From the IMG/VR virus record IMGVR_UViG_3300013127_000846, positions 1 through 32,366 of that record: 32,366 nucleotides of DNA; one strand, 5' to 3'. Origin of the DNA: a virus. This document shows positions 12,404-17,125 of this stretch, in pieces; the first letter of the stretch is position 1, and every line of letters starts with the position of its first letter. A model generated the notes under the pieces. It worked only from the letters and a program-made list of their open reading frames with translations. It made no database searches and was not told the origin of the DNA. The position numbers and the translations under genes were made by a program.

Positions 12404-13531
12404 TCAGATTACATATATTTGACGAGGCATTGCTCTAAACTTCATTTGTTTATTTAGGTTTTCTGCAATCATAGCCTCTCTTTCCATTACCTTTTCAGGT
12501 CTTAATCTTGATAACCAACCATTTTCCCCGACTAGTTCTTCCAACAATTTGCTTTTTTCGTCTTTAGCTTCTGTTAACAAGCTTTGATAATCCATTTGGA
12601 TTTCAGAATCAGGTGTCTTGAGGTTTCCACTATATTTTCCACGAACTCGTGCTAAGGTCTCTTTACAATATGCTGTAAACCATCTTCTCACCCATTGTTG
12701 ACCAGGAACATTCAAATCTTCCCAACTCAAGTTTTCAATAGGAACGTCAGTTGGTAATTTAATTATATCAGGATTGTTTTTCAAACAATCGGCTCTACTA
12801 TCAGGTTCTACGTCATAATACCAATACCAAACCGCTTTACCAACGTATAGGCTGTAATTGCTCCAATTGAATCTTCCACCAGGTGTATTATAAAGATGGA
12901 CTAATTTTTTTCCATCAGGTAATCCTGTGATTCTATATGTTAAGGACCCACCTAATATTCTATTAAGGATGTTGGCTTCTTGCATTCTAATAAGATAATC
13001 AAATCCAGACATCATAAAGTATGAACCCTGATATCCCATCTGTGCGTATCCCGCCTCGTTTGCACCCAATCCGATACCACCGAAACCAAATCCACCAACT
13101 CCACCCAAACCAAATGCGGTCCAAGGTTGGTTGCTGAACCATAACAATTCATTAACTTCTCGACCTGCAGGTATTTCGTAATCTTGTTTGTTTTTTTCTA
13201 AAATGAAATAATCTTTTTTTAATACCCAAGGACCAACAGTTTGTAGTCCAACGATTTTTGAATATGCGTAAGAAAACTGTTGTTCAAAATCCATAGTTCT
13301 TGTTACTAATGCTCTTGCTACGGATTTTTCATTCATATTAAGGTTAACCAAGTTAACCCATTGAGAATCAATCAACCATTGAAGTACATATTCTTCATAG
13401 TCTCCAATAGATAATTCCATTAGGGAATCCATCATCTCGTCTTCAAGTTCGACACTTCTCAGAGGGGCACCCAAGAGATGTTTGATTCTCGTATATATTC
13501 TACTTCTTTCTGGTTCGGGTAGTGCTGCCAT
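12404..13531 (-). CDS. Neck protein, T4 gp13-like
   Basis: A 375-residue protein, longer than T4 gp13 (309). The N-terminus has the gp13-type arrangement: a helix, then LGAPLRSVEL at 20-29, then an acidic helix DEMMDSLMELSIGDYEEYV. DYEIPAGREVNELLWFSN around 117-133 resembles the L-P-x-x-I-x-G-V segment in the cyanophage homologues, and TPGGRFNWSNY is followed by an aromatic helix. A Gly-rich insertion occupies about 139-165. gp13 and gp14 complete the head neck before tail joining. The neighbour across the divergent block is gp14-like, which supports the call. Similarity is remote and by eye, so a portal-adaptor role under another name is possible. Confidence 0.55.
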   Translation of the reverse strand: MAALPEPERSRIYTRIKHLLGAPLRSVELEDEMMDSLMELSIGDYEEYVLQWLIDSQWVNLVNLNMNEKSVARALVTRTMDFEQQFSYAYSKIVGLQTVGPWVLKKDYFILEKNKQDYEIPAGREVNELLWFSNQPWTAFGLGGVGGFGFGGIGLGANEAGYAQMGYQGSYFMMSGFDYLIRMQEANILNRILGGSLTYRITGLPDGKKLVHLYNTPGGRFNWSNYSLYVGKAVWYWYYDVEPDSRADCLKNNPDIIKLPTDVPIENLSWEDLNVPGQQWVRRWFTAYCKETLARVRGKYSGNLKTPDSEIQMDYQSLLTEAKDEKSKLLEELVGENGWLSRLRPEKVMEREAMIAENLNKQMKFRAMPRQIYVI

Positions 13532-13549: not shown

Positions 13550-15088
13550 TTATTCTATTTCGTGTAACAACGAATTGATATTAAAAACATATCTATCTTT
13601 ATCACTAACAGGTTCATTTTTGAAAATAAGTATCTTATTTGTTTTTGGATTATTGAATATGAACCAATCAACATTATATGGTTTAACATTTCCTGTATCC
13701 AATAACTCAATCAAATCATCTTTGATGATAATATTAGAAAAAGGTTTTACCTGTGCAGTATATTGAGTACCGTCTAAGTCAATTTTTAAATCAATTCCTT
13801 TGAACGCATCCATCTTAGCTCCGTGTGAACCAATTTTTTCAACTTTAGCTTTGCCTTCAAAATAATCTTCAATTTTTTTATTAGCGTTGTTCTCGGATTT
13901 TTGACCTCTATCCCAAAGTTTTTTCAAAACTTTGATGATGTTAATGAAGTCTTCGTTTTCTTTTGAGAATATTTCATTCTTGAAGTGGTCCAAAGCAACA
14001 ATTAATCTAGCGGTTTCTTTTGGGTTTCTTCTTTCTTGTTTCCAAAATTGGAATTTCTTTTCAGGTTTACCAATTTTATCTATTTGTTTATTTACAGCTT
14101 TGACTAAAAGACAAAAAGCGTTGAAGTTTGTGTTAAGGTTATTCAATATTGACCTTCCCTCAGGAGATTCGATACCATAGAAACCAGACATTTCCATTGT
14201 AGTTCCGTCAACCCAAAACTGTGAAAATTTCTTTCTTAGAACATGAGTAACACCGTCTTGGTATAATTTTTTAATCTTGTTGTTATTAATCAAGTCTCTA
14301 AAAAACACTACTTCTTTAGGGTCACAAAATTGAGGTTCTTTAGATTCCGTTAACAATTTTTGAAGTTGAGCGGTTTCCAAAAGTTTTGTTTCTGTTTTCA
14401 TTTGGTACATTTTTTCAACAAACTCCCAATTAACAACTTTCCAAAAATTAATAATATACTCATCCCTTTTGTTTCTGTATTTCAAATAGTAAGCATGTTC
14501 CCATAAGTCTAAACCAAGTAACGGAAACCCACCACCTTCAATAACATTCATCAGTGGGTTGTCTTGGTTTGGTGTGGACATAATTTTCAGAGTGTTCTTT
14601 GATGTTAGAACCAACCAAACCCAACCTGAACCAAATCGGTCCTTGGCCATTGTTTCAAATTTCTTTTTGAAAGTTGTAAAGGTTCCGTATTGTTTGGTTA
14701 TTTTTTTGTAAAGTTCACCCTCAAGTTTCTTAGGATTTGGGGTCAACATGTTCCAAAAAAGTGCGTGGTTGAACGCTCCCCCAGCATTGTTCCTTATAGT
14801 TTGGTCGTAACGACTTATATTCTTAATTATTTTTTCTAAGTCTAAGTCTCCGTGTTTTTTCTTGGCTAAGGCTGCGTTTAATTTATCCACATAACCTTTG
14901 TAATGTTTGTTGTAATGAAAATTCATCGTTTCTGCATCGATGAAAGATTTGAGGGCTGAATAAGAATAAGGTAATTTTTCTATTCCAATTTTTTTCATTT
15001 CGTTAATCAACACCTCTTTCTCTTCTTGAATGTGGTTTTCGAGTATTTGTTTTTCGAGTTGTTGAATTTTTTCTTCAATTTTCTTCAT
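13550..15088 (-). CDS. Mn/Fe superoxide dismutase fused to a C-terminal PD-(D/E)XK-like region
   Basis: A 512-residue protein. After a charged helix (1-33), residues 38-228 are a full Mn/Fe superoxide dismutase: LPYSYSALKSFI, metal ligands H58 (NFHYNKHY), H108 (GAFNHALFW), D194 and H198 (GLDLWEHAYYLKYRNKR), and second-shell Y66 and Q175 (TPNQDNPL). NAGG at 101-104 and NQD favour the manganese or cambialistic type. Free SODs are about 200 residues, so roughly 280 are added. Residues 230-410 are mostly helical and unrecognised. Residues 400-512 contain FKGIDLKIDLDG then YTAQVKPF, with D433 and Q446-x-K448 spaced as in Mrr-type PD-(D/E)XK nucleases. The SOD call is secure; the nuclease fold is an inference. 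No signal peptide, so it acts in the cytoplasm or in the virion. Confidence 0.9.
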   Translation of the reverse strand: MKKIEEKIQQLEKQILENHIQEEKEVLINEMKKIGIEKLPYSYSALKSFIDAETMNFHYNKHYKGYVDKLNAALAKKKHGDLDLEKIIKNISRYDQTIRNNAGGAFNHALFWNMLTPNPKKLEGELYKKITKQYGTFTTFKKKFETMAKDRFGSGWVWLVLTSKNTLKIMSTPNQDNPLMNVIEGGGFPLLGLDLWEHAYYLKYRNKRDEYIINFWKVVNWEFVEKMYQMKTETKLLETAQLQKLLTESKEPQFCDPKEVVFFRDLINNNKIKKLYQDGVTHVLRKKFSQFWVDGTTMEMSGFYGIESPEGRSILNNLNTNFNAFCLLVKAVNKQIDKIGKPEKKFQFWKQERRNPKETARLIVALDHFKNEIFSKENEDFINIIKVLKKLWDRGQKSENNANKKIEDYFEGKAKVEKIGSHGAKMDAFKGIDLKIDLDGTQYTAQVKPFSNIIIKDDLIELLDTGNVKPYNVDWFIFNNPKTNKILIFKNEPVSDKDRYVFNINSLLHEIE

Positions 15089-15109
15089 GTATTGGAGTTA
15101 TTTGTTTTA

Positions 15110-15117
15110 TATAAATA
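15110..15117 (-). promoter_or_regulatory. Promoter-like octamer TATTTATA before the SOD fusion gene
   Basis: On the minus strand TTATTTATATAAAA lies 21 bases before the ATG at 15088. The following leader is A-rich without a clear Shine-Dalgarno site. Confidence 0.55.
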
Positions 15118-15140
15118 ACTCGTTGTAGTTTTAATTCCTT

Positions 15141-15364: not shown

Positions 15365-17125
15365 TTAAGGTCTCAATTCATTGATTTTTTTGAGGATTTC
15401 TTCTGCAACATCTCCACCCCCAAGGTTATCTCCCATAACAGTTGCAATTACTTGTTTTTTGTTGTTAAGGATATCATAAATAACCCCTTCGATTGTATTT
15501 TCAAAAATTGGATAATATACTAATACGTTGTTCTTTTGACCAAATCTATATGCTCTATCTTCTGCTTGTGAGTGGTCTGACGGTAAAAATGAAAGGTCAT
15601 TCATTATAACCGCTTCTGCGGCTGTAAGGGTTAGACCAACACCCGCTGCTTTTATGTTACCTACAAAAACTTTTATCTTTTCGTTTTCTTGGAATTGGTC
15701 AACACTAAATTGTCTATCTTGTTTAGTCATAGACCCATCGACCTTGACTGCGGATTTACCAAAATGTTCAACAATTTGATTTAGAGAATCTGTGAAATTA
15801 CAAAATATGATAACCTTCTTATCTTGTTCTAAAATATTCTCAGCAAGTTCAATTGTTTGAGATATTTTTTCATTGGCTATGACTTGTCTAACTTTTGTGA
15901 GTTTAGTAAACTGAACGGTTAGTGATTTCGATTCGTCAGGATTTTTATCATACCAATTATAATATTCACCCATTAATTCTTCATAGTCTTTGGACTTGAG
16001 TCTAAGATATACAGGGGTAATTATTTTATCAGGTAAGTCTAAAACGTCTTCTTTTAATCTTCTCGTTATAGTATTTGAAGTTCTTTCTCTAAGTTCCTCC
16101 AAATTAGAAGAACCCATGACGTTCCAAACTTTTCTTGCACCTACTTTGAATTGGTATCCACTACAATATCTAATAACATAGGCCATCCAATTTTTTGCTA
16201 CGGGAGAATCAACAAGACTTAGTAGATTATAATAGTCTATTGGACGAGAGGTCATTGGAGTACCAGTCAGAAGCCAAAGTCTATCAACTTTTTTAACAAT
16301 ATCGTTGATTAGTTTTGTTCTTTGGGCTTGAGCATTTTTGATATAGTGTGCTTCATCAACGACCACCAAATCAAAATTGGAAGCCAAAATTTGAGAATCA
16401 TCTTTCTTTTTAGAGTCATGGAAATTTTTTAATATGTCGTAGTTTATTATTACAAAATCGTGTTCAGTACTAAAGTGTTTTCCTTCAGCAATATATATTG
16501 TTTTGTCTGAGTAGTTTTCAATCTCTCTTTTCCAATTTATCTTAAGAGTTGCGGGACAAATGATTAGAACTTTTTTTGTACCTGATTCAAGAGCTGCGAT
16601 AATAGTGGATGTGGTTTTACCTAAACCCATATCATCAGCCAAGATGTATTTTTTATTTTCTACAAGTTTTTGTATTGCTTCTTTTTGATGGGCTAGCGGT
16701 GGTCTCTTAGAATACTTGTCGTAATTAATTACAACGTCTTTTACAGTGTTGTCTTTTATAATCGAAGCTTTGGGTAACCAAAAATCATGGAGTTGTTCAG
16801 TTTCCCAAACTCTCCCCCAAATGTGATATGCTTTGTCTTTCTCCGCTAAAAGTTTTTCAACCCAAACTCTCTGTGGTACTTGGGTGTATAATTTGTCGTC
16901 AGCTAATTTTTGTGCAAAATAAGCGTCAAGAATTACCCATTTTTTTGCAACCTTTGGTTGTTTGTCGTGGTTATTTATTATGTACTCTGATTGACTTCTT
17001 GTAGGATAAAATTTTTTATTGATTTGGGACTTACGTTTTAGTTCCAATATGTAGTTGTTAGCACCCTCATAATTTTCAAGAAGTGAAATAGCTTTTGACT
17101 CTAATGATATTTCTGTTGAACTCAT
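15365..17125 (-). CDS. SNF2-family DNA helicase/translocase
   Basis: A 586-residue protein with a complete superfamily 2 motor of the SNF2/SMARCAL1 branch. Motifs are the Q-type LAHQKEAI at 144-151, Walker A DDMGLGKT at 164-171, DEAH at 257-260, LTGTP at 286-290, GVGLTLTAAEAVIM near 495-508 and QAEDRAYRFGQ at 520-530. Residues 1-140 form a variable N-terminal domain ending in a W-rich stretch (HIWGRVWETEQLHDFW). Such ATPases move on double-stranded or branched DNA, and annealing helicases restart forks. In this phage it could replace the recombination and fork-reversal role of T4 UvsW. Its ATG overlaps the SET gene stop, so the two are co-translated. Confidence 0.9.
   Translation of the reverse strand: MSSTEISLESKAISLLENYEGANNYILELKRKSQINKKFYPTRSQSEYIINNHDKQPKVAKKWVILDAYFAQKLADDKLYTQVPQRVWVEKLLAEKDKAYHIWGRVWETEQLHDFWLPKASIIKDNTVKDVVINYDKYSKRPPLAHQKEAIQKLVENKKYILADDMGLGKTTSTIIAALESGTKKVLIICPATLKINWKREIENYSDKTIYIAEGKHFSTEHDFVIINYDILKNFHDSKKKDDSQILASNFDLVVVDEAHYIKNAQAQRTKLINDIVKKVDRLWLLTGTPMTSRPIDYYNLLSLVDSPVAKNWMAYVIRYCSGYQFKVGARKVWNVMGSSNLEELRERTSNTITRRLKEDVLDLPDKIITPVYLRLKSKDYEELMGEYYNWYDKNPDESKSLTVQFTKLTKVRQVIANEKISQTIELAENILEQDKKVIIFCNFTDSLNQIVEHFGKSAVKVDGSMTKQDRQFSVDQFQENEKIKVFVGNIKAAGVGLTLTAAEAVIMNDLSFLPSDHSQAEDRAYRFGQKNNVLVYYPIFENTIEGVIYDILNNKKQVIATVMGDNLGGGDVAEEILKKINELRP

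Follow-up and report, generated by a model that had tools for sequence, protein, structure and literature searches.

The window analysed here, a 32,366-nucleotide stretch of viral DNA, contains an open reading frame in which a superoxide dismutase (SOD) appears to run on into a nuclease. This raises the question whether the two are truly one gene, and what a phage would gain from encoding them together. Sequence comparisons and structure models support well a true gene fusion between a host-derived, apparently catalytically complete Mn-type SOD and a PD-(D/E)XK-type nuclease of a huge-phage family. In agreement with the original prediction, which knew of no such protein, we found no literature report of the two enzymes joined in one phage protein; the combination is spread over a common lineage of jumbo phages whose SODs resemble those of Bacteroidota. 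The features of the locus are collected in Table 1.

Table 1. Features of the fusion gene and its immediate neighbours (window coordinates).
Feature	Position	Strand	Evidence
SOD-nuclease fusion ORF, 512 aa	13550..15088	(-)	ORF, Pfam, PDB, homologues
Leader, residues 1-30, helical, N-terminal; proposed capsid-targeting propeptide ending in I28-N29-E30	14999..15088	(-)	[LI]xE at E30 in 124/124
Mn-type superoxide dismutase domain, residues 31-229, ligands H58, H108, D194, H198	14402..14998	(-)	Pfam, PDB, NCBIfam, invariant ligands
Linker, residues 230-255, poorly conserved, with conserved L236-x-E238 and [LI]-x-E248	14324..14401	(-)	Homologue conservation
Predicted prohead-protease site L-x-E238	14375..14383	(-)	124/124 sequences
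Predicted prohead-protease site L-x-E248, directly before the nuclease part	14345..14353	(-)	95% of 124
Helical region, residues 256-378, conserved, motif GRSxLNNLNTN	13955..14323	(-)	AF2 model; hhalign to the L257 protein
PD-(D/E)XK-type domain (predicted), residues 379-512: E399, D433, Q446-x-K448	13553..13954	(-)	AF2 model, fold matches, invariant residues
Downstream neighbour, neck-like, partial match to head-tail adaptor Ad2	12404..13531	(-)	phrog_211, E 2e-9, residues 277-334 of 375
Upstream neighbour, SNF2-family DNA helicase, invariant neighbour	15365..17125	(-)	Pfam and PHROGs, loci
Late-promoter-like TATTTATA within a 9-bp inverted repeat	15110-15117; repeat 15095..15121	(-)	Located just upstream of the start codon

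A scan of IMG/VR retrieved 149 full-length relatives, in many contigs of up to 321 kb, and profile searches with the C-terminal part gave more than 400 relatives. Judged from these sequences, the carriers are a widespread group of very large phages, a common jumbo-phage lineage. Conservation is counted throughout over 124 distinct full-length versions extracted from IMG/VR contigs. In every one of them the fusion is a single open frame, which excludes the frame-join error between two genes that the original prediction had named as a possible refutation of the fusion. An internal translation start at M230 was also considered and is unsupported, the methionine being substituted in two of the 124. 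The value of dN is well below that of dS in the SOD half and the C-terminal half alike, as under purifying selection. The gene occurs once in each of 13 records, with no paralogue in any of these genomes. The DNA gave no nucleotide-level match to named phage records. The UniProt entry A0A6J5L953 (501 aa, uncultured Caudovirales phage; Foldseek E 3.5e-34, 45% identity over 484 columns) is apparently the same fusion, annotated there only as ‘superoxide dismutase’, with the nuclease part unnamed. The BFVD entry A0A8D9CCA0 (1113 aa, uncultured marine phage) matches the full-length model over 567 columns with 16% identity (Foldseek E 1.4e-13) and may be a larger relative; this viral fold search used the full-length AF2 model (pTM 0.50), which is weaker than that of the isolated C-terminal part and too poor to place the domains relative to each other.

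The SOD half is a complete enzyme domain, as originally described. Pfam Sod_Fe_N and Sod_Fe_C match residues 36-226 (E 1.5e-22 and 2.4e-39), both in full and above the curated cut-off, and the top hits in the PDB are solved MnSODs (E ~1e-60), aligned over residues 38-229. The PDB alignments begin at residue 29 or later, so that residues 1-30 are extra relative to ordinary SODs. All four metal ligands are invariant (124/124), as are the first- and second-shell residues H62, Y66, G104, Q175, E197 and Y201. The glycine in the first half and the glutamine of the NQD motif, G104 and Q175, form a second shell of the kind generally read as Mn-type in this family. The domain thus resembles the bacterial Fe/Mn superoxide dismutases (PF00081/PF02777) of MnSOD type in its whole length, its four ligands and its second shell (H62/Y66/Q175/E197/Y201), and differs from them in being encoded by a phage and in being extended by a leader of 30 residues at the N-terminus and by a nuclease part of 283 residues at the other end. 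It is also the most conserved part of the protein, with a mean column identity of ~91% versus 61-62% in the C-terminal regions, and with about half of its columns invariant versus about 12%. Most of the closest cellular SODs retrieved (46-56% identical) belong to Bacteroidota, which suggests a donor in this phylum and probably a host there too.

The 283 residues that follow belong to no recognised family in Pfam, PHROGs, NCBIfam or PADLOC. They have no Pfam nuclease match above the cut-off, and only weak matches to phrog_5018 (unknown function, best E 5.7e-5). A C-terminal profile gave no useful match among PDB sequences, and no cellular relative appeared in 84,980 bacterial and archaeal genomes in a single-sequence search that reaches close relatives only. 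Nevertheless, the isolated AF2 model of residues 230-512, built from 71 sequences, has a pLDDT of 83.6, and the leading PDB folds for it are I-Ssp6803I (E 3e-3, probability 1.0), the SPARDA DREN nuclease and Hjc resolvases, all of them PD-(D/E)XK enzymes. Residues E399, D433, Q446 and K448 are invariant in 124/124 and match the pattern E, D, (D/E/Q)xK. The first helix and the strands of the core fold are present in the model. The helix that usually separates the final core strands of a PD-(D/E)XK fold is hard to make out in it, and no fold match has an E-value better than 3e-3. The E-values being modest, it is the order of the fold, the invariant residues and the consistent top matches together on which the identification as a PD-(D/E)XK-type nuclease rests. 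DREN is an active D/Q/K variant (D41/Q60/K62; PMC12205087), so the Q-x-K of the fusion is no sign of a dead enzyme. With I-Ssp6803I, DREN and Hjc the domain shares the predicted core fold and the E...D...QxK active site; it differs from them in the extra helical region and in its fusion to SOD. The original prediction had recognised D433, Q446 and K448, without E399, as a PD-(D/E)XK-like signature, and the fold search it proposed supports this. Its likening of the domain to Mrr nucleases does not hold, since neither the full protein nor 43 C-terminal members match Mrr in Pfam and the nearest solved folds are the three above. A homing endonuclease of the I-Ssp6803I type was rejected as well, because the gene is single-copy in 13 of 13 records and keeps one fixed syntenic slot.

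The two halves are not always found together. Among the matches listed (the best 80 of a distant profile search), 19 loci have the nuclease without SOD in the slot of the fusion, and two, L420 and L444, have SOD and nuclease as separate adjacent genes in the same slot. The 735,411-bp phage record LR756501 encodes a stand-alone protein of 290 aa (L257:7770-8642) consisting of the helical region and the nuclease; it matches the fusion with E 9e-6 in tblastn and E 1e-12 over 241 columns in hhalign, and keeps all four active-site residues. This homologue lacks the SOD, the leader and most of the linker with its [LI]xE sites. A viral-contig search with the LR756501 protein alone returned nothing; a search with a mixed alignment succeeded. 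In a tree of the nucleases, the SOD-less forms branch at two strongly supported positions among the fused ones, so that SOD was probably lost at least twice; the placement of the long branches LR756501 and L420 in this tree is unsure. At L396, the leader is kept and SOD is reduced to its first residues (MKKIEIEKL), apparently by a precise internal deletion. L420, a long branch of uncertain position, may preserve the arrangement from before the fusion. The SOD-less and split forms, and the solitary nuclease of LR756501, mark SOD as a module added to a nuclease family of huge phages; the comparisons indicate that the nuclease is the core function and SOD exchangeable cargo. They also weaken the earlier suggestion that a redox state is coupled to DNA cleavage, for which we found no support. 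Because fused, split and SOD-less versions occupy one genomic position, what a phage gains from SOD and from its delivery with the DNA can be asked directly. Another stand-alone nuclease-like protein of the GIDxxx...QVKP type lies beside the DNA polymerase gene of the 634,780-bp phage record LR745206 (L258:7494-8249 (+)); it matches in hhalign with E 2.5e-8 over 51 columns, and its N-terminus, MKKFTEYIKES, has an IxE motif.

Short motifs in the protein suggest how the two halves might be separated. In phage T4 the protease motif has the form (L/I)xE, with which the LIE-9 site agrees. Only four [LI]xE triplets in the whole fusion are conserved in at least 90% of the 124 sequences: one is part of the SOD active-site WEH (E197), and the others end at E30, just before SOD, and at E238 and E248 in the otherwise variable linker. 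All 12 distinct SOD-less or split homologues have a leader of 9-45 aa ending in [LI]xE before the nuclease. The split SOD of L444 keeps the same leader with a LITE site; the more divergent split SOD of L420 is without LITE and has only ILE at residues 14-16. Prohead proteases of the gp21 type cleave short motifs on the C-terminal side of a Glu (PMC9026906, PMC5694885). Since the window contig is a 32-kb fragment, the protease and the capsid protein were looked for in relatives: all six genomes tested contain an S77 (gp21) prohead protease above the cut-off and a gp23-type capsid protein, whose N-terminus has LINE|ASS at the expected processing place in the five that were read. Cuts at E30 and E238/E248 would yield a SOD of ordinary size, and a nuclease released by the cut after E248 would start about where the LR756501 protein starts. 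Since L-x-E is so short a motif, the conserved sites strongly hint at cleavage but do not prove it, and the marked conservation around E30-M31 could instead have a structural reason. A capsid-targeting sequence normally lies at the N-terminus, but two of the three sites in the fusion, the second and the third, lie within the chain. We suggest that [LI]xE at domain borders, in phages encoding gp21, may serve as a simple signature for other packaged enzymes. In the 317-kb relative G001, a leader of the form K/R-LTES-DL-x-R-h-V-x-x-V-[IL]-x-E recurs at the start of about ten proteins that otherwise differ (for example at 183182-184123, 195664-196017, 198880-199284, 210842-211138 and 211783-212295); this leader may be another capsid-targeting sequence.

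The surroundings of the gene point to late expression. In all loci that reach far enough, the order is SNF2-type helicase, fusion, neck-like gene, a small gene and DNA polymerase B. The downstream product had been called a neck protein; the match to phrog_211 agrees, and as it covers only part of the sequence (Table 1) this assignment is plausible rather than certain. The original prediction had also placed the gene behind a phage-type promoter element. In the coding orientation, TATTTATA lies 22-29 nt upstream of the start of the fusion, and it precedes the fusion in 48 of 49 relatives. The 317-kb relative has 80 such sites, 50 of them at most 60 nt upstream of an ORF in the coding orientation and 11 in the opposite orientation; several copies in the first 120 kb of that genome and in the window precede virion genes. 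The element thus appears to be a promoter, and it favours late expression of the kind seen for virion genes, as had been proposed. Arms of at least 7 bp flank TATTTATA in 47 of the 49 relatives, and ~24% of shuffled sequences also have such a repeat. The arms covary between relatives (GAGTTATT/AATAACTC versus GGATTAT/ATAATCC). A SET-domain gene near the fusion (window:17122-17517 (-)) has a 49% identical relative (L257:7302-7739 (-)) that adjoins the stand-alone nuclease of LR756501, and is thus part of a neighbourhood common to both lineages.

We hypothesize that the fusion is a precursor delivered in the virion and cut by a gp21-type protease into SOD and nuclease. We consider this the best explanation and hold it to be about evenly poised between right and wrong; it keeps alive the original idea of a packaged and injected protein. 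Expressed late, from a promoter of the structural-gene kind, the precursor would be directed to the prohead core by its helical leader, in the manner of T4 capsid-targeting sequences. The prohead protease would then cut after E30 and after E238/E248, giving a SOD of about residues 31-238 and a nuclease of about residues 249-512, which would both remain in the head and be injected along with the DNA. There, SOD would remove superoxide early in infection, and the nuclease would cut either host DNA or branched or damaged phage DNA. Fusions to T4 capsid-targeting sequences carry foreign enzymes, including nucleases, into the head and the host cell (PMC9026906). The fusion is like the T4 internal proteins in its leader ending in [LI]xE and in the gp21-type protease of its relatives; it differs in that its leader has ~30 aa and that further internal sites would release two enzymes, and its packaging is a proposal. 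The chlorovirus PBCV-1 packages SOD (A245R) and restriction endonucleases (PMC7019647), a late-made viral SOD and virion-delivered endonucleases; these are separate proteins of a eukaryotic virus, the SOD is of the Cu/Zn type, and for the fusion delivery is our proposal. By analogy, SOD and nuclease could lower superoxide and cleave DNA as infection begins. With a little less confidence, short of an even chance, we generalise this to a jumbo-phage ‘injectable polyprotein’, in which an antioxidant enzyme and a nuclease would be co-packaged, separated by the prohead protease and co-delivered, with SOD as exchangeable cargo between two protease sites.

The main rival, which we consider rather unlikely yet the most serious, is that the protein is neither packaged nor cut and acts in the cell as a bifunctional enzyme with a resolvase or packaging role. 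SOD would protect the cell and the phage DNA late in infection, the nuclease would serve recombination or packaging, being Holliday-junction-resolvase-like or a head-completion enzyme, and the SOD dimer may pair the nuclease domains. Hjc-type resolvases are among the best matches, a resemblance by fold only, and the gene lies between a helicase and a neck-like gene. Neither EndoVII, RuvC nor a TnsA-like (TnsA-N) head-completion nuclease was found in two 317-kb relatives, so a slot for a resolvase or packaging nuclease may be open, and uncharacterised REase-fold proteins of jumbo phages have been proposed as resolvases (PMC7824862). However, this reading leaves unexplained both the [LI]xE sites conserved at domain borders in a variable linker and the [LI]xE-terminated leader of every distinct SOD-less nuclease, and the loss or separation of SOD in some lineages makes a needed dimerising role unlikely. 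That the fusion is instead a structural or head-completion protein, with the SOD fold mainly an assembly module and the nuclease trimming DNA at the neck, we regard as improbable. The invariant position beside the neck-like gene and the late-type promoter would suit such a role, for which T4 gp4, a virion-associated REase-fold DNase needed for packaging, is a precedent (PMC7824862), but the invariant catalytic residues of SOD and the greater conservation of that half (~91% versus 62%) are expected of an enzyme, and orthologues without SOD exist. Finally, a host-stress auxiliary metabolic gene, in which the SOD activity alone counts and a degenerate C-terminal part is carried along as a passenger, would fit the host-like (Bacteroidota) SOD and the stand-alone SODs of Vibrio phage 2.275.O and the PA5oct group, yet is very improbable, because the nuclease active site is invariant, both halves are under purifying selection, and the nuclease is kept where SOD is lost, the reverse of what a passenger would do.

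Other parts of these genomes gave further observations. Upstream of the DNA polymerase, the window contains consecutive sugar-transfer genes (window:1439-8812 (+)), with members resembling GlcNAc transferase, FkbM methyltransferase, galactosyl-/fucosyltransferase and HtrL/YibB. A tail sheath protein of 1074 aa (window:19411-22635 (+)) matches known sheath families over its last ~220 residues only. In the 317-kb relative G001, 23 tRNA genes are densely clustered with a tmRNA gene at C1:120000-139999 (L364).
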